This document shows positions 16,058-63,443 of a DNA stretch of 64,000 nucleotides, piece after piece. This DNA comes from Candidatus Chloroploca sp. Khr17 (GTDB taxonomy: Bacteria; Chloroflexota; Chloroflexia; Chloroflexales; Chloroflexaceae). Every line of letters starts with the position of its first letter. Positions within the stretch are counted from its first letter, which is position 1. The notes beneath the pieces are model-generated. The model was not told where the DNA came from. It made no database searches and was given only the letters and a program-made list of their open reading frames with translations. The stretch is taken from NCBI RefSeq assembly GCF_004138165.1, contig NZ_RYFF01000001.1, positions 62,001 through 126,000 of the forward strand, given 5' to 3'. The position numbers and the translations under genes were made by a program.

Positions 16058-16975
16058 TTATTGACCGGGCTGAAGGAACTGCGGATAAGCAATCCCAGCC
16101 TCGACCCCCCACTGGAACCAGTTATTGACAAAATCGGGCATCGAGAGGAAGACACCGATGGCACCAGTCACCCCACAGAGCCAGGCAAACCAGAAGGCCC
16201 AAATGTGGATCGAGTACGCATTGGCATTGAAGCCCATGCACCAGCGCCAGAAGAGTTGCGCCCGCTCGGTACCGGTACCAGGGGCCTGCAACTCGTCCCA
16301 CTCTTCGTGGGCGGCATACTTCTCAAGCGCCCAGATCGTACCAGCATGCATTGCCAGCAGCACTGTTGAACCAAGCAGGAAGAAGATCGAGAGCATATGG
16401 AACGGGTTGTAGTAGAAGTTCCCGTAGCGCACGCTCACGTTATTCGTCCAGTCAAGCAACGCCTTGAGGCCATGCGAAGGCGCCTCAGACCAGTCGGCCA
16501 TCCACATCGGGCGAATGATATAGATCACGAGGTAGAGAATAATCGCACCGGTGAAACCATACGCCAGATAGGGCTTGATGCCAAGCGTCCTTGCACGGGT
16601 ATAGAGATGCATATACCAGCAAAAGATCGAAATCGTCAGGAAGAAGGTCGAAATAAGCCACCAGCCACCCTGATGGAGGGGGGGAAAGCTAAGGCCATAG
16701 AAACTAGCGGGCGGGTCGATCTGCAAGACAAAGAAATACTTCGCAAATGCAATCGGGTTCCAGTTGACCTGCATCGCCATTACCGACAACCAGATAAAGG
16801 TAAAGATCCCACCGGTCACATACGCCGCAACATTCCAAAGACCAAGGAACGTCGGGCCAATCTGGCTATCCAGGCCGAAGTTTTCAAGGACAGGGAGCTC
16901 TATCGCCTTGCCGATCCGTCCCTGCGGATTAGGCCCCAGTTCAAGATCGCCGGGGGTTCTATTCATTGTCGCCAT
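16058..16975 (-). CDS. pufM: Photosynthetic reaction centre M subunit
   Basis: This 305-residue protein is a five-helix type-II reaction-centre subunit. His193 (NPFHMLSI) is the special-pair ligand, His210 and His257 are metal ligands, and Glu224/Glu225 lie in the loop that holds the Glu ligand in purple bacteria. At the accessory bacteriochlorophyll position the purple-bacterial His of HLDW is Leu173 (LLDW), as known for Chloroflexus aurantiacus, where bacteriopheophytin occupies this site. The ORF reaches 17014, but GAGGAG lies 9 bp before ATG 16975, which also gives the family length. It follows pufL on the same strand with 71 bp between. Membrane protein. Confidence 0.97.
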   Translation of the reverse strand: MATMNRTPGDLELGPNPQGRIGKAIELPVLENFGLDSQIGPTFLGLWNVAAYVTGGIFTFIWLSVMAMQVNWNPIAFAKYFFVLQIDPPASFYGLSFPPLHQGGWWLISTFFLTISIFCWYMHLYTRARTLGIKPYLAYGFTGAIILYLVIYIIRPMWMADWSEAPSHGLKALLDWTNNVSVRYGNFYYNPFHMLSIFFLLGSTVLLAMHAGTIWALEKYAAHEEWDELQAPGTGTERAQLFWRWCMGFNANAYSIHIWAFWFAWLCGVTGAIGVFLSMPDFVNNWFQWGVEAGIAYPQFLQPGQ

Positions 16976-17046
16976 AAGACTACTCCTCAACTGTGTAGGC
17001 AAGCGCTGGTTCAAAGGATAGGCAGCACGCCCTGCTCCTCAGCGGC

Positions 17047-17982
17047 TTACACCCCACTCCACCAGGGAAGGACATTCCAGAAATTCCAGAAACTCACCCA
17101 ATCCTGCACGGGCCAACCCGAGAAGAGGATACAGAGATTAGCTGAGAGAACGCCACCGCAGGCAAAGATAAACCCAAGACGATGGATGCCTGACTCACCA
17201 ACCGAGTAGACAATTGTATCGCGGAAGAAGATATTCTCGATATCTCCGCCTTCAGGCCCACGATATTGCGCTGCACTCAAAATAAGTGAGCCGTGAGCGG
17301 CAAGTAGCCAGGTTGAGCCAAAGAGCCCCGTGATCCCGATCGCGTGGAAGGGGTTGTAGAAGAAGTTGTTGTAGCGGTAACCAAAATTAGAAACCCAGTC
17401 GAGGTGGGGCATAACACCAAGGACAAAACCTTCGTGCCACATCCCGAGGGCGATGGGCCGAATAATCTGGAGGGTCACCCAGGCCGAGAAGACAACACCA
17501 TAGGCAACAGCAATATGGTAGCCCATGTTGAGCTTCATACTGATGTCAACCTGGCGCATCATCCAGCCAAAGAACGCAATCGTGGCAAAAAGTACGGTCA
17601 TCTGCCAGACAAAACCAGGTTGCCCAGGGCTGACCAGGGCCAGACCTACTTCGGCAGGCGGAGGATCAAGGCGTCCGGCAAAAAAGTTCTGCGGTAGCGA
17701 GAACGGTCCGTTGACGACGGTTGCATTGAGGTAGAAGTAGCTACCGAAAATAATCCCAAGGACAGAAATAAACCCCCAGAAACCAACGTAGAACGGCCCC
17801 ACCCAGAAATCAAAGGGGTCATTCTTGAAGAGGGCGCTGAAGGTTGTTTTGCCCTTAATCTTATATTCGGGCTCCATCTCTTCGATCGTGCGTCCCCCCG
17901 GAACTCGTGTTGAACGCGCTCCTTCTTCCACAGTAAAACCAAAATCGGGGAAACGTGGGTCCTTTGCCTTCGTACCACTCAT
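17047..17982 (-). CDS. pufL: Photosynthetic reaction centre L subunit
   Basis: This protein has 311 residues, the length I recall for the Chloroflexus L subunit. His193 (PHLDW) is the accessory bacteriochlorophyll ligand, His213 (NPFHAIG) the special-pair ligand, and His230 and His267 (GIHRLG) the metal ligands. Phe208 stands where purple bacteria have the His that hydrogen-bonds the special pair. Five membrane helices follow a soluble N-terminus of about 60 residues. AAGGGAG precedes the ATG. It heads the pufL-pufM unit behind the promoter at 18124-18152. No antenna genes or pufC are in this window. Confidence 0.97.
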   Translation of the reverse strand: MSGTKAKDPRFPDFGFTVEEGARSTRVPGGRTIEEMEPEYKIKGKTTFSALFKNDPFDFWVGPFYVGFWGFISVLGIIFGSYFYLNATVVNGPFSLPQNFFAGRLDPPPAEVGLALVSPGQPGFVWQMTVLFATIAFFGWMMRQVDISMKLNMGYHIAVAYGVVFSAWVTLQIIRPIALGMWHEGFVLGVMPHLDWVSNFGYRYNNFFYNPFHAIGITGLFGSTWLLAAHGSLILSAAQYRGPEGGDIENIFFRDTIVYSVGESGIHRLGFIFACGGVLSANLCILFSGWPVQDWVSFWNFWNVLPWWSGV

Positions 17983-56170: not shown

Positions 56171-56905
56171 ATGACCAGTCCCGCTGATGAGCAACGCACC
56201 GTTCTGGCTGTTGTCGCCCATCCCGATGATGCCGAATTTAGTTGTGGGGCGACCCTTGCGGCCTGGGCGCAAGAAGGGTGGGAGGTGACCCTGGTGGTCT
56301 GTACGGATGGCAGCGGGGGCGGGCCTGATGATGCCATTGATGTGGGGCCAGCAGAGCGCCGTCGGATTAGCAACATTCGGAAAGCTGAACAACGCGCCGC
56401 AGGAGAAGTGATGGGCCTCAAGGAGGTGGTCTTTCTCGATTATCCCGATGGGATGCTCGAACCTAGTCTTGCGCTACGCCGCGATATTGTGCGCCAGATC
56501 CGCCGTACCAGGGCCTATCGCTTTGTCTGTCAGTCACCTGACCGGGTCTGGACGCCGGGGTATGTGATTGGACGTTACCATCCCGATCATCTGGCTGCCG
56601 CCCAGGCGAGCCTGGCAGCGGTCTATCCGGCAGCCCAGAATGGCTGGGATTTCCCCGAGTTACTGGCCGAGGGCTTGCCCCCGAGTCGCGTTAAAGAACT
56701 CTTTGTCGTGGGGGCACCGCACCTCAATTTTGCGGTTGATATTTCAACGACCTTCGAGTTGAAACTCGCGGCTCTGCGCTGCCATGTGAGTCAGCTTGGC
56801 ACCGATCAGGTGGAACTGGCTGAGTTGATCCGCCAGTGGGCCATTGAACGCGGCGAACCCTTCGGCCTACCGATGGCCGAGACCTTCCACCGCGTCGAGA
56901 ATTAG
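56171..56905 (+). CDS. PIG-L/LmbE family deacetylase
   Basis: This 244-residue protein has the metal-binding AHPDDAEF (about 16-23) and RYHPDHLAA (His/Asp) motifs of the zinc-dependent LmbE/PIG-L fold (MshB, BshB and GlcNAc-PI deacetylases). It removes an acetyl or acyl group from a GlcNAc-containing glycolipid or thiol precursor. AAGGAG lies 8 bp before ATG 56171; a TTG at 56165 is less likely. It follows the REC-roadblock gene by 2 bp and converges with selA, sharing 4 bp at the stop codons. Confidence 0.87.
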   Translation: MTSPADEQRTVLAVVAHPDDAEFSCGATLAAWAQEGWEVTLVVCTDGSGGGPDDAIDVGPAERRRISNIRKAEQRAAGEVMGLKEVVFLDYPDGMLEPSLALRRDIVRQIRRTRAYRFVCQSPDRVWTPGYVIGRYHPDHLAAAQASLAAVYPAAQNGWDFPELLAEGLPPSRVKELFVVGAPHLNFAVDISTTFELKLAALRCHVSQLGTDQVELAELIRQWAIERGEPFGLPMAETFHRVEN

Positions 56906-58281
56906 CTCGCGTCAAGCACCCGCGCAACCAGCGCATTGGTTTCATCTTCACCAACGGTGCGCAGATCAAAGAGGATCTGCGCGTCGCTGATGCGCGCAAT
57001 GACCGCAGGTTCACCAAGGCGCAAGCGTTGCATCAGCACTTCGGCCCCGACCGGCCCTGGCAACACAGCAACGCCAACGCTTGCCAGGGTCTCGCCGGGC
57101 AGCGAGCCTCCGCCGATGGCACTGCGACACGGCATGACGCTGGCGGCGATGCCCGCCGCTTGCAGTGCTGCGGCGAGCGCTGCGGCGCGCGCCTGGAGGC
57201 GAGGCAAGGGGGCGCTGATCATCTGCCACACGGGGATTTCGTTGAGTGCTTGCCCACGGAGGTAGCTGCGCAACGTAGCTTCGAGGCCGGCAATCGTCGT
57301 CTTGTCGAGGCGTAGCGCACGGGCGAGCGGATGTCGGCGGAGTTGAGCGATCAATGTTGCGCGGCCTACCAGTAGCCCGGCCTGTGGCCCGCCAAGCAAT
57401 TTATCACCGCTGAAGGTCACGAGATCAGCCCCGGCTGCGATACTCTCTTGTACCATTGGCTCGGGGGCGAGGCCAAAGGGGGCGGTCGGCAAGAGGGTTC
57501 CACTGCCAAGATCGTCGACCAGCGGCACCCCGTGGGTCTGTGCGACGGTCGCCAGTTCAGCGAGGCTGGCCTCGTGAACAAAGCCAACCAGGCGAAAATT
57601 GCTACTATGCACACGCAGCAGCATTGCGGTGCGCTCGGTGATGGCTGCGGCATAGTCACGCGCATAGGTGCGATTGGTCGTGCCAACTTCAACGAGCGTT
57701 GCCCCACTCTGGCGAAGGACGTCGGGGATGCGAAAGCCGCCCCCGATCTCGACCGCCTGGCCGCGTGAGACAATCACCTCGCGCCCGGCCGCCAACGCAA
57801 TCAGCGCCAGATAGACGGCGGCCGCATTATTATTGACGGCCAGCGCCGCCTCGGCCCCGGTCAATCGGGTCAGCAGCGCTTCGAGGTGAGCATTGCGACT
57901 GCCCCGCTTGCCGACAACGAGATCATACTCAAGATTGCTATAACCAGGGGCAACTGCGTGCATGGCAGCGCGAGCCGCTACACTGAGCGGGGCACGTCCC
58001 AGGTTGGTCTGAATAATCACCCCGGTCGCATTGATCACCGGGCGCAGACTAGGGCGAAGTTCGGTGGTGATGCGGGCGATAACCTGTTCAGCCAGGGTAC
58101 GCAACAAGACCTCGGGCGGCACGGCCTCACGTTTTTCCCCGGCCTGCAAGCGCCCACGCAGATCGTCGAGTTCGGCGCGTACCGCCTCACGGAGCAACGC
58201 GCCAGGCCACGCTGGATCGGCCTCGGTGCGTACCACCTGGAGCAACCGATCAACACTGGGCAGATCACGTCTGGTCAGCAT
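56902..58281 (-). CDS. selA: L-seryl-tRNA(Sec) selenium transferase
   Basis: This 459-residue protein is full length for SelA. The PLP lysine is Lys294 (FSGDKLLGGPQAG); the N-terminal INATGVIIQTNLGRAPLS and SNLEYDLVVGKRGSR segments are typical. It converts Ser to selenocysteine on tRNA-Sec. No selB, selC or selD is here, and the genes in the window that could use Sec (peroxidase, oxidoreductase) have Cys. GAGG precedes ATG 58281; the longer ORF overlaps the preceding gene. It is the last gene of a five-gene operon with envelope-precursor enzymes, an unusual place. Confidence 0.92.
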   Translation of the reverse strand: MLTRRDLPSVDRLLQVVRTEADPAWPGALLREAVRAELDDLRGRLQAGEKREAVPPEVLLRTLAEQVIARITTELRPSLRPVINATGVIIQTNLGRAPLSVAARAAMHAVAPGYSNLEYDLVVGKRGSRNAHLEALLTRLTGAEAALAVNNNAAAVYLALIALAAGREVIVSRGQAVEIGGGFRIPDVLRQSGATLVEVGTTNRTYARDYAAAITERTAMLLRVHSSNFRLVGFVHEASLAELATVAQTHGVPLVDDLGSGTLLPTAPFGLAPEPMVQESIAAGADLVTFSGDKLLGGPQAGLLVGRATLIAQLRRHPLARALRLDKTTIAGLEATLRSYLRGQALNEIPVWQMISAPLPRLQARAAALAAALQAAGIAASVMPCRSAIGGGSLPGETLASVGVAVLPGPVGAEVLMQRLRLGEPAVIARISDAQILFDLRTVGEDETNALVARVLDAS

Positions 58282-58294
58282 CAACGCCTCACTC

Positions 58295-59638
58295 TCAGCC
58301 TGCAATGGCTTCTTGCTCGGCTTGCGCCAGGGCACGGGGCGAAGCATAGTCACGCCGTGAAACAGGGGCTTGGGCGACTGCCCCACGGCTCGCTCGGGTC
58401 AACTCAAAGGCCGCCCGCAGCAACGCCTCGTAATCAGAGGTCAACACGCGCTTGCGCCGTCCCATCACCGTGCGAGTGACGCCAATCATGCCATCAATGC
58501 GATACTCGCGCAGCGTATCGCCACCCCAGGTGAAATGAGGAATATTTTTAGGAATGTTCTGCGATCCAAAAACATTGCTTCCTGTGCCAATCATGGTGCC
58601 GCCATTGAGCAACAGGCCAATACCGAGCTTCACATGATCGGCGAGGAACATCCCGAGCTTGATCACCCCACTATCAAACTGCCCAAGATCTTCAAGATTG
58701 ACCCGAATATTGCCATAATTATTTTTGAGATCGCTATTGGTGGTCATCGCCCCAATATTGACCCATTCACCGAGCCAGGAATGGCCGAGAAAGCCATCGT
58801 GATGTTTATTGCTATAGCCCTGGATAATGCTCGCTTCGACCTCACCCCCGACGCGGCAAACCGGGCCAATCGCCGTTTCGCCGCGAATACGAGCGCTAGA
58901 AATCAGGCTCCCCCGGCCAATATAGGCTGGCCCCTGCAGAAAACTAAAGGGCTCGATATGGGCCTCGGCCTCGATAAAGATCGGGCCATCGCGGGCATCC
59001 AACACCAGCGGCCCATCGAGGCGGGCGCGTGGATCAACATAGACCCGTTCGCCGCGTACCACGACATTGGGCAGCGCGGTCGTGAGCAACGGCAATCGTT
59101 GTTCAAGGAGCGGCAGATCGCGCACCAGTTGCTCACCCGACTGATTGATCAGATCCCAGGGAAAGCCAAGCAGCAGGGGTGGCTCATCGGGGCCAAGATC
59201 ATGCGCCCGCGCAAAGCGCAACAACTCATCACGCGCATCACTCGTGTGCTGTGACTGGACAAAATAGAGCACGGCACTCGCCAGGGCCGGTGAGAGATAG
59301 GCCGCCAGGAGGGTATCGCCGGCGAGATAGACCGTATTCAATGGCTCGGCCAGCAACCGGGGCAACCAGGCCAGATCGAGCGCACGGCCATTGACCAAGA
59401 TAACCGGCTCACCAGCCTGAAGAAACGCCGTCAACCCTGCGGAAGGACCGAAGCACTTCATCAAATGAGGCCGCGCCATACCCAGGGCCAATGTCTCATC
59501 ACGCCGCAACGAGCGTACGGTCGCCTCGATCCGCTCACGCACCGTATAGCCACCAATGCGCAATTCAAAGACAGGGCGGGCCTGCACAAGCGTTGCGAAG
59601 CGCTGCCACAATTCATCTTCAAAGACAATGAGGCTCAT
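58295..59638 (-). CDS. GlmU-like sugar-phosphate nucleotidyltransferase with left-handed beta-helix
   Basis: This 447-residue protein has an N-terminal nucleotidyltransferase-type domain (about 1-185) that lacks the canonical GlmU GxGTRM signature, then a hexapeptide-repeat beta-helix (about 190-375) with IGPVCRVGGEVEASI and a C-terminal tail rich in Ala and Arg. This fits the putative sugar nucleotidyltransferase family (NTP_transf_4 type). The beta-helix may carry acetyltransferase activity or form the trimer. It lies between the YvcK-like gene and selA, 3 and 13 bp away. Actual substrates are unknown, probably amino sugar phosphates. Confidence 0.75.
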   Translation of the reverse strand: MSLIVFEDELWQRFATLVQARPVFELRIGGYTVRERIEATVRSLRRDETLALGMARPHLMKCFGPSAGLTAFLQAGEPVILVNGRALDLAWLPRLLAEPLNTVYLAGDTLLAAYLSPALASAVLYFVQSQHTSDARDELLRFARAHDLGPDEPPLLLGFPWDLINQSGEQLVRDLPLLEQRLPLLTTALPNVVVRGERVYVDPRARLDGPLVLDARDGPIFIEAEAHIEPFSFLQGPAYIGRGSLISSARIRGETAIGPVCRVGGEVEASIIQGYSNKHHDGFLGHSWLGEWVNIGAMTTNSDLKNNYGNIRVNLEDLGQFDSGVIKLGMFLADHVKLGIGLLLNGGTMIGTGSNVFGSQNIPKNIPHFTWGGDTLREYRIDGMIGVTRTVMGRRKRVLTSDYEALLRAAFELTRASRGAVAQAPVSRRDYASPRALAQAEQEAIAG

Positions 59639-60835: not shown

Positions 60836-60867
60836 AAAAATTGGTCGAAGCAAGCGACCTGGCTTGC

Positions 60868-62010
60868 TTAGGGTTTGAGCAACTGTTCACGCTGGGCATC
60901 AATCAAACTACGCAAATTGCCACCACTGCGCGCAACCATTTCAATACACACCAGACCGGCCAGAATCGCATCAGCATATCCTGCATAGCGTCCGATAATA
61001 ATTTCACCGTCGGGCGTAGCCCCAACAACGGGGCGTTGACGTGGAAGGGCAAGCAATTCAACGAGGCGCTCGGCGGGATCACGCAGACCTTCGACGCGCA
61101 GACCAGTCTGTTCTTCCCAAGCCGTGACGCGTGGCAGACCAGCGAGCGGCGAGGCTAGGTCGGGGGGCGGGATCACCACAGCCCCGCGTTGACGATACTG
61201 ACGAGCCATATAGGTTGCGATCAAGAGCGCCGTCTCGGCCGGGTCGAGTTGCTCACCATTCTTATCAACGAGGGCCAGCGCGGTTCCATCAGCTGAAATC
61301 GCCAGACCGAGGTGCGAGTCACTTTCACGGACGAGCTTTTTCAACCGATTGAGCCCGGCGGTCACCGGGGCGGGGGTACTGCGCCCGAAGAGCGGATCTG
61401 GTTCGCGGTTAATTTCAATCGCCCGGGTCTGCCCACTATCACTCAAGAGGGCGGGCACAACACCGGCTGCCGTCCCATTCATTGCATCAACAAAAATGGT
61501 CAGGGAGGTACGGCGGATCAGGTCAAGATCAATCGCCTCACGGAGCGCCGCAAAATAGGGAAGCCGCAGATCAACGAGTTGATCGGCGGGTAACGGATCA
61601 GCATGGGGAAAGAGTGGGGCCGTCGCCTGGGCTGGATCTGGCTCAAGCGAAAGTTGGACCGAACCATCGGTGAGGAGCGCAAGGCCATTGTAGTAATAGG
61701 GCCGATTGCATGCCGACACATAGAGCGCACAGGGGGCGAGATGCTCATCGAGCGCGTGATGCAGAGCGGGCAACGGCATATGCGAACTGGCGAGACTAGC
61801 CTCAACGCCGTGTGCTTGCAAGATCTCGAGGCAATCACGGGCAAAGAGCGGCCCCATAAACCGCGTATCATACGCCACGAGGCAACTCAGCTTGCGTGTA
61901 CTCAAGCCACGCGCCAGCGTCATCACCCGCTGACGCACCTGATCAAGGGTAAAATCCGCGCTATAGATAGCCTGCCAGGCCAATGCATACGGACGGTAAC
62001 GCTGGGTCAT
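60868..62010 (-). CDS. Degenerate phosphohexomutase (probable pseudoenzyme)
   Basis: This 380-residue protein has the alpha-D-phosphohexomutase fold, but the catalytic loop that reads TASHNP in active enzymes reads VSACNRP: the phosphoserine is Ala100 and the following His is Cys101. The metal site DGDGDR reads SADGTA (240-245), with two of three Asp and the Arg lost. The remaining length is somewhat shorter than the active relative (457). It starts 4 bp inside the stop of the active phosphohexomutase gene (ATGA), so it is translationally coupled to it. A regulatory or heteromeric role is likely. Confidence 0.82.
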   Translation of the reverse strand: MTQRYRPYALAWQAIYSADFTLDQVRQRVMTLARGLSTRKLSCLVAYDTRFMGPLFARDCLEILQAHGVEASLASSHMPLPALHHALDEHLAPCALYVSACNRPYYYNGLALLTDGSVQLSLEPDPAQATAPLFPHADPLPADQLVDLRLPYFAALREAIDLDLIRRTSLTIFVDAMNGTAAGVVPALLSDSGQTRAIEINREPDPLFGRSTPAPVTAGLNRLKKLVRESDSHLGLAISADGTALALVDKNGEQLDPAETALLIATYMARQYRQRGAVVIPPPDLASPLAGLPRVTAWEEQTGLRVEGLRDPAERLVELLALPRQRPVVGATPDGEIIIGRYAGYADAILAGLVCIEMVARSGGNLRSLIDAQREQLLKP

Positions 62011-63380
62011 AGGCGCCTTCGGAGTTTGTCCACGACACCCATCATCAGATCGCGGATGGCCTGCGCTCGTTCCATCGTCTGGGCTTCAAAACGATTGGTC
62101 AGAGCTGGTTCGGTATTCGAAGCACGGAGCAGGCCCCAGCCATCGCCAAAATCAACGCGTACGCCATCAACATCAATCACCGGGTGTGTGGCACGGAAAT
62201 ACTCGTACACATGCTCAATCACGCGAAACTTATCTTGCTCAGCGCAAGGGATACGCCCTTCATCAATCGAAGGCAAGATCGGATACGGGGCCAGAACCTC
62301 GCGCAGGTTGGTGCCAAGTTGATGCAACGCATAGAGCAGATAAGCCCCGGCAAAAGCCCCATCATCAAAATAGTGGCCTTCTTCAGGGATAATCGTATGG
62401 CCGCTGAGCTCGCCCCCGAGGACCGCATTCGTCTCACGCATTTTGGCCGAAAGGTTGGTATACCCGGTCTTCCACAATACTGGCGTCCCCCCCAGACTAC
62501 GAATCGCCTGAGGCAAGATAGCACTACATTTTACATCAAAAATCACTGACCCTTTGCGGCGACCAAGCAGATACGTGGCGAGGGCAATCAGGTAGCGATC
62601 GGCAAAGACGATGGTACCATCGCCATCAACCACACCGAGGCGATCGCCATCACCATCGAGCCCGATCCCGAGATCAGCCTGATGCTCACGCACCGCCACG
62701 ATCAATTGTTGCAGATTTTCGGCCTTGAGCGGATCGGGATGATGGTTCGGAAAGGTGCCATCTGGTTCAATAAAGAGGGGAATAACGTCAAGGCCAAGTG
62801 CCTCATACATTGCCATTGCAATAGGTCCGGCCACCCCATTCCCTGCATCGAGCACGACGCGGGGCCGTTTGCCGGCAAAACTGAGTAACCCGGTCACATT
62901 CTGCAGATACGCCTCATCAACCGAAAGGTGGGTCACACTTCCTTTGCCTTGCACCACATCACCCGTCAAGGCAAGCTGCCCGACCTCCTGGATCATCTCA
63001 GAAGGGGCTGGTTCGCTCCCATACACGGGATGGGCAAGGCGCAACTTCAGGCCATTGAAGGCTGGGGGATTGTGGCTCGCCGTCACAATCGCCCCGCTAT
63101 CGGCGCGCAAATGCTCGACGGCAAAATACATAACCGGCGTTGGTGCCTGACCAATATCGAGCACTTCACAGCCGGTCGAGCACAAACCATCAATCAGCGC
63201 GGCGGCAAAACGGGGCGAACTGAGCCGCGCATCGCGGGCGACCACGACCCGTTGGCCGCCGCGCCGACAGATCAAGGTGCCGGTTGCCTGACCGAGCTGT
63301 GTATAGACCGCTTCGTCGAGATCATCATCGACAATGCCACGAATGTCGTAGGCGCGAAAAATCGTCTGATTCAGGCCCAT
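62007..63380 (-). CDS. Phosphohexomutase (phosphomannomutase/phosphoglucomutase)
   Basis: This 457-residue protein has all active-site motifs of the alpha-D-phosphohexomutase superfamily: TASHNP with Ser102, the metal loop DGDGDR (242-247), the sugar-binding GELSGH near 340 and the phosphate-binding RASNTEP near 425. It interconverts 1- and 6-phosphates of glucose or mannose (PMM/PGM type). GGAG lies 8 bp before ATG 63380; the longer frame to 63443 crosses the promoter. It heads the five-gene operon ending in selA. Confidence 0.92.
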   Translation of the reverse strand: MGLNQTIFRAYDIRGIVDDDLDEAVYTQLGQATGTLICRRGGQRVVVARDARLSSPRFAAALIDGLCSTGCEVLDIGQAPTPVMYFAVEHLRADSGAIVTASHNPPAFNGLKLRLAHPVYGSEPAPSEMIQEVGQLALTGDVVQGKGSVTHLSVDEAYLQNVTGLLSFAGKRPRVVLDAGNGVAGPIAMAMYEALGLDVIPLFIEPDGTFPNHHPDPLKAENLQQLIVAVREHQADLGIGLDGDGDRLGVVDGDGTIVFADRYLIALATYLLGRRKGSVIFDVKCSAILPQAIRSLGGTPVLWKTGYTNLSAKMRETNAVLGGELSGHTIIPEEGHYFDDGAFAGAYLLYALHQLGTNLREVLAPYPILPSIDEGRIPCAEQDKFRVIEHVYEYFRATHPVIDVDGVRVDFGDGWGLLRASNTEPALTNRFEAQTMERAQAIRDLMMGVVDKLRRRL

Positions 63381-63414: not shown

Positions 63415-63443
63415 ATCCTAACGTAAAGGGGCGGTTCCGTCAA
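63415..63443 (-). promoter_or_regulatory. Promoter of the phosphohexomutase operon
   Basis: On the minus strand, TTGACG (63438-63443), 17 bp and TAGGAT (63415-63420). The leader would be about 28 nt. Its -35 lies 5 bp from the -35 of the divergent greA promoter. Confidence 0.6.

Follow-up and report, generated by a model that had tools for sequence, protein, structure and literature searches.

A conserved phosphohexomutase homologue of Chloroflexales, predicted to be catalytically dead and lacking domain 4, as a candidate docking regulator in UDP-GlcNAc supply

We analysed a 64,000-nucleotide stretch of the genome of Candidatus Chloroploca sp. Khr17 (the window; the genome is G000 in our sample). 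Towards its end, a phosphohexomutase gene (product A), a shorter homologue (P), a gene for a protein with a reduced CofD/YvcK-type domain (Y), a GlmU-type gene and selA follow one another in that order on the minus strand (Table 1). The gene that diverges upstream of A is presumably greA, a name given by sequence recognition. The initial annotation described P as intact and as sharing 4 bp with the gene of the active mutase, and this is correct: the A stop codon and the P start codon overlap as ATGA, with a GAAGG inside A a few bases upstream of the junction. Among the 35 loci in which the A–P spacing was measured, the 12 that lack the overlap have a gap of 3–206 nt. A small terminator-like hairpin lies between P and Y, just before the Y start (window 60843-60859, minus strand); terminator-like sites in the region as a whole (8, vs 5.8 in shuffles) are not above shuffles. 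Elsewhere in the window there are two photosynthetic reaction-centre (PF00124) genes, at about 16091-17793 on the minus strand (positions derived from genome coordinates G000:C1:78091-79793). The DAC protein of this genome is encoded on a different contig from the P locus.

Table 1. Features of the A–P–Y locus, in window coordinates
Feature	Position	Strand	Evidence
A, intact PMM/PGM-type mutase, 457 aa	62007-63380	-	ORF, Pfam, active-site loops
P, domain-4-less pseudomutase (predicted), 380 aa	60868-62010	-	ORF, Pfam, alignments
ATGA overlap, A stop/P start	62007-62010	-	sequence; -4 overlap in 23/35 loci
Serine-loop remnant of P: S99 A100 C101 N102 R103 P104 replacing TASHNP	61699-61716	-	alignments
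Domain 2 of P (residues 146-252), 28/42 invariant residues	61255-61575	-	alignment
Metal-loop remnant of P: SADGTA (239-244), middle Asp alone kept	61279-61296	-	alignment
P-specific invariant patch R222..KLV.ESDSH233	61312-61347	-	alignment
Y, 397 aa, reduced CofD/YvcK-type domain behind two hydrophobic N-terminal helices	59642-60835	-	Pfam, models
GlmU-type enzyme	58295-59638	-	TIGR03991, 373 bits vs cut-off 225.3
Promoter-like site upstream of A, TTGACG-17-TAGGAT	63415-63443	-	9/12 consensus match only
selA, beyond GlmU-type gene	about 56902-58386	-	

A retains all four active-site loops (TASHNP, DGDGDR, GELSGH and RASNTEP), and thus has the Ser, metal, sugar and phosphate loops of P. aeruginosa-type PMM/PGM. 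Among solved structures, those of P. aeruginosa PMM/PGM are its best relatives (E 4e-142), and the P. aeruginosa enzyme is a monomer. A scores 402 bits with the PgmG model NF046027, under the curated cut-off of 600 bits. Only four PF02878 proteins were found in the genome, and the three intact ones all fall under the GlmM model cut-offs; A is a candidate for the mutase that makes GlcN-1-P.

The neighbour of P had been named a YvcK-type protein. The CofD/YvcK likeness stands, but Y is not a canonical member: Pfam CofD matches its second half only, two hydrophobic helices N-terminal to the match presumably anchor it in the membrane, and the YvcK/GlmR model TIGR01826 gives 128 bits against a cut-off of 196. 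About 90 residues of canonical Chloroflexota YvcK are missing, including the DTGRSTG...GIPAPGDLR stretch, and the canonical YvcK of this genome is encoded on another contig. A structural model of Y (pLDDT 79) has 2hzb/2o2z (BH3568) as its best matches. The UDP-GlcNAc setting that had been proposed for the locus is borne out by the gene after Y, which had escaped notice, as had the reduced, membrane-anchored form of Y itself; its product scores well above the cut-off of an alternative bacterial GlmU model (Table 1). The GlmU gene usually follows Y, although the two are not adjacent in the Chloroflexus-type loci L148 and L159, and a YvcK-type gene comes after GlmU in several genomes of family f4. 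A distant full-length relative of Y (31%), encoded without the rest of the operon in the f6 genome G087 (L151:6199-7455, plus strand), is possibly of the type ancestral to Y. In Bacillota, GlmR/YvcK is reported to bind UDP-GlcNAc and to act on GlmS (PMC7525490), and the Listeria protein has been reported as an accessory uridyltransferase (PMC10128056).

In P, the catalytic Ser had been read as replaced by Ala100 and the following His by Cys101. The loss of both residues is real, whereas the register was off by one: both pairwise and multiple alignments pair the catalytic Ser of A with Cys101 of P, and the next residue, His, with Asn102, while Ala100 corresponds to the Ala of TASHNP in active enzymes. 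We counted the loops in 40 usable P sequences, from 42 found, after excluding the broken frames of L048 and L049 (L045 was trimmed to 395 residues, and A rows of 400 aa or fewer were excluded). The Ser column holds Arg in 19, Gly in 12, Cys in 7 and Ser in 2, and a Ser–His pair occurs in none of the 40. That most metal ligands are lost was also correctly noted: the metal loop is SADGTA-like in every sequence, with the middle Asp always kept, and the other two metal Asp and the Arg of DGDGDR appear in 0/40. Further losses had been missed. The sugar loop (GE.SG) is present in none of the 40 and the C-terminal domain 4 is absent from all of them; the N-terminal GTDGWR has lost its Arg, and the ETPVGF loop known from relatives is gone too. 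Judged from its sequence, P is a dead mutase whose catalytic machinery is wholly lost.

P nevertheless has the characteristic fold of domains 1–3 of the alpha-D-phosphohexomutase superfamily, without its phosphoserine, metal and sugar loops. Pfam PGM_PMM domains I and II match, III matches weakly (E 0.039, below the cut-off) and domain IV does not; the GlmM models TIGR01455 and TIGR03990 give 61 and 106 bits, far under their cut-offs of 447.6 and 439. The AlphaFold model, a confident one (pLDDT 89, pTM 0.91), is a three-domain mutase fold whose nearest solved structure is 1tuo (Z 34.6 over 347 residues, rmsd 3.0). Most of the solved mutases among the top matches listed have Z 28–35, and B. subtilis GlmM in its short, CdaA-bound form (7ojs/7olh) has Z 32.5.

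P was initially taken for a dead duplicate of its active neighbour, and this did not survive phylogenetic analysis. A and P share 26% identity. With P as profile, intact Chloroflexota mutases of ~470–550 aa match at about 1e-39 to 5e-64, and neither A nor any other mutase of the same genome reaches 1e-20. In a 31-protein tree, P forms one clade (100/100) that groups with a ~490-aa family and E. coli Pgm (100/99), with A, ManB/CpsG and GlmM lying elsewhere. Topology tests reject a grouping of A with P (p-AU 5.4e-9), which together with the tree excludes P as a duplicate of A, and do not reject one of P with the ~490-aa family (p 0.305). The stem of P is long (1.47), which makes its exact place unsure, but P appears to descend not from A but from the part of the superfamily to which the intact ~490-aa mutases, widespread in Chloroflexota, belong. 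An intact member of that family was found in no f1 or f4 genome at 1e-20. Its best solved relative is 1tuo, which we take to be a member of cd05800, and the ~490-aa family probably corresponds to the cd05800 glucose-1,6-bisphosphate synthases. Members of cd05800, Slr1334 and a Bacteroides homologue, are reported to make glucose-1,6-bisphosphate, from Fru-1,6-BP (PMC9426568). The f6 genome G087 encodes an intact ~490-aa mutase directly followed, in an overlapping frame, by a GlmM above cut-off (L152:4957-7852, plus strand), another coupled mutase pair in which both members are intact.

Orthologues of P (E 1e-90 or better, the next matches being clearly apart at 5e-64) were found in 39 of 41 f1 genomes and 12 of 26 f4 genomes, and nowhere else among the 158 genomes of the class that were searched or in a phylum sample of 400 genomes. 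Broken-frame or contig-cut P genes may mimic absence in these counts, and four of the P-less genomes (G023, G062, G070 and G080) are incomplete. The closest named contigs, from the vicinity of Candidatus Chloroploca, carry P at 97–98% identity. A scan with two peptide patterns, one genome per species, returned 45 loci: 44 relatives of P and one full-length cyanobacterial mutase. The named hosts of P in the scan include Chloroploca, Oscillochloris, Viridilinea, Chloroflexus, Roseiflexus and Kouleothrix, and one P locus belongs to a MAG labelled Gracilibacteria. P does not simply track phototrophy, because PF00124 genes are also present in the P-less f4 lineages g21 and g31 and in the P-less f2 genome G040, and were not found in the P-bearing genomes G045 and G004.

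The initial annotation suggested looking for TASHNP and DGDGDR in relatives, on the argument that their retention elsewhere would mark this copy as a decaying pseudogene. TASHN and DGDGDR are absent in 40/40, and dN/dS of P lies between 0.057 and 0.264 in all 19 close pairs; where computable, the corresponding ranges are 0.025–0.206 for A and 0.027–0.229 for Y. The shared losses, the low dN/dS and the invariance of domain 2 described below lead us to reject a decaying pseudogene. A milder form of the argument, that P is a remnant in slow decay that persists only through translational coupling, could draw on the higher dN/dS of P than of A in 14 of the 16 pairs with both values, on the two losses of P described below and on the broken P frames of the MAG loci L048 and L049. 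Frame breaks also strike A (MAG loci L021 and L050), however, so they look like assembly errors, and with dN/dS well below 1 in 19/19 pairs, motifs invariant across two families and an in-frame deletion of A in one genome that retains P, we consider such a remnant extremely improbable.

The invariant residues of P are unevenly spread. In a 38-row alignment (without L045, L048, L049 and the near-duplicates L001 and L009), and with domain borders that we set from the Pfam matches, 28 of 42 invariant residues fall in domain 2, which is 107 of 380 residues long, against 11.8 expected (p 3.6e-8). Nine lie in domain 1, where 16 were expected, and five in domain 3. There is little or no such skew in A (41 of 143 invariant residues in domain 2, p 0.03) or in 12 members of the ~490-aa family (22 of 93). 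Among the invariant residues of P, E199-I-N, F208, P213 and P215 are ancestral, and R202, R222, K225 and the ESDSH segment are fixed in P alone. We conclude that P is preserved by purifying selection and that its constraint has moved into domain 2. It could be argued that the strongly invariant polar residues there, R222..KLV.ESDSH233 and E199-I-N-R202, serve a new kind of catalysis that has nothing to do with phosphoryl transfer; P contains no obvious cofactor motif, we know of no precedent for such catalysis in the mutase fold, and we regard this as very unlikely.

Comparison of gene content among 92 P loci shows how far the partners can be separated. These loci are not independent genomes, many species having been fetched twice (as genomes and as named contigs), and the count omits L125 (the named contig matching L045), because its P reads through into Y. 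Y follows P in 88 loci and the contig ends just past P in the other four; P without Y was not seen where the contig allowed. A precedes P in 88 loci as well, the exceptions being two contigs that start inside P and the two loci of G012, an uncultured Oscillochloris (Kiruna MAG). In G012, A is cut to a 36-codon in-frame leader (L011:1391-1501, plus strand; also L090) that keeps the A upstream region, the A start and the ATGA junction with P, with a changed YDIRG motif; P, Y and GlmU are intact, and A was not found elsewhere in that genome at 1e-90. Conversely, the f4 lineages g21 and g31 keep A-Y-GlmU-YvcK without P. Among the 14 P-less f4 genomes, A is present in 12, and Y is full length in 11 and a fragment in one more; Y is therefore independent of P in these genomes. 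If the common ancestor had P, at least two losses of P must be placed on the trees. A and P are thus separable in both directions.

This separability bears on the proposal of the initial annotation that P is a regulatory partner of A, the dead member of an A–P heterodimer that would tune the mutase. Adjacency of the two genes in 88/92 loci, often with the ATGA overlap, would fit such a complex, and GlmM enzymes are reported to dimerise through domain 1 (PMC8573169). Against it, the corresponding domain of P is poor in invariant residues (9/42 vs 16 expected). The closest solved relative of A is, moreover, a monomeric enzyme. P has been lost twice with A kept and is kept without A in G012, which makes an obligate heterodimer unlikely, and we extend the same judgement to a regulatory subunit of A in general.

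We also counted the columns that are otherwise invariant but changed where P was lost, in g21 and g31 against control clades. There were 4 and 3 such columns in A (controls 0–3), 2 and 2 in Y (controls 0–4), and 8 and 4 in GlmU (controls 0–2); one column in A, and none in Y or GlmU, had changed in both lineages. If the test leans anywhere, it is towards GlmU and not Y. In G016 (L045:4704-7124, minus strand), P and Y lie in one frame of 822 aa; we do not read this fusion as a sign of interaction, since a G-run near the end of P is one base shorter than in the sister locus L051, and the fusion is likely an assembly or sequencing error.

We tentatively favour the view that P is a non-catalytic adaptor or regulator that docks on Y through domain 2 and acts in UDP-GlcNAc supply. 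What favours it is the combination of a dead, three-domain, domain-2-conserved P beside a membrane protein, a setting that parallels the GlmM–CdaA complex considered below. In such a scheme, P would have lost its phosphoserine, metal, sugar and phosphate sites and domain 4 in the common ancestor of the Chloroflexus/Oscillochloris/Chloroploca and Roseiflexus families, and would then have been retained for a new role resting on domain 2. Soluble P would dock by a domain-2 face onto the membrane-anchored Y encoded just after it, and this would adjust how UDP-GlcNAc, the product of A and GlmU, is made or used, with A perhaps converting GlcN-6-P to GlcN-1-P or carrying out a related mutase step. 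Coupling to the translation of A would set the dose of P and would make no A–P enzyme. A fuller version, in which P and Y are a two-pseudoprotein switch between the mutase and GlmU, P being derived from a stripped Glc-1,6-BP-synthase-like mutase and the switch controlling UDP-GlcNAc at the membrane of phototrophic Chloroflexales, seems to us doubtful.

Domain-2 conservation could instead serve a ligand, RNA or self-assembly. P might also be a non-catalytic sensor that binds a sugar bisphosphate or UDP-sugar in the old cleft and reports to the enzymes of the operon, as its intact modelled fold, its retention of the ancestral-family E199–F208 and P.P motif, and its kinship with probable glucose-1,6-bisphosphate synthases (PMC9426568) would allow. 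The GTDGWR Arg, the Ser loop, most of the metal loop, ETPVGF, GEESGG and domain 4 are all gone, however, whereas the inactive mutase PGM5 is reported to keep an intact substrate site (PMC7761743), and we judge a sensor of this kind distinctly unlikely. Docking on Y is thus preferred both to this sensor and to a subunit of A.

In the literature searched, with few subscription journals among it, we recognised no report of a bacterial pseudoenzyme of the superfamily or of this Chloroflexales operon; an animal pseudoenzyme and an active GlmM that moonlights as inhibitor of a membrane cyclase are known already. The animal protein, PGM5 (aciculin), is described as an inactive vertebrate phosphoglucomutase of the same superfamily kept by selection (PMC7761743). 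PGM5 still binds glucose-1-phosphate. P resembles it in being an apparently inactive member under selection, but PGM5 is close to PGM1 and keeps substrate binding, whereas P lacks the binding sites and domain 4 and belongs to another subfamily. GlmR/YvcK of Bacillota resembles Y, whose model matches the BH3568 structures best, and differs from it in having neither the two membrane helices nor the gap of about 90 residues. The Slr1334-type enzymes of cd05800 and T. thermophilus 1tuo are joined to P by probable ancestry, P and its ~490-aa relatives both matching 1tuo best, and are set apart from it by the loss from P of every catalytic element. PMC9426568 also states that no P. aeruginosa-type PMM/PGM (cd03089) occurs together with a cd05800 enzyme, and asks how strains with cd03089 make Glc-1,6-BP; here, a P. 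aeruginosa-type enzyme, A, adjoins a probable dead descendant of a cd05800 enzyme.

The nearest parallel to the role proposed for P is in B. subtilis, in which domains 1–3 of GlmM are reported to bind and inhibit the membrane c-di-AMP cyclase CdaA, chiefly through domain-2 helices (PMC8573169), so that a mutase fold without domain 4 suffices to bind a membrane-anchored protein. The truncation of GlmM was engineered and natural GlmM is active, whereas P is naturally short and predicted to be dead, and its partner is putative. As a conserved bacterial dead mutase without domain 4, P would be an example of this fold given over entirely to binding, and the natural loss of either A or P makes its function testable.
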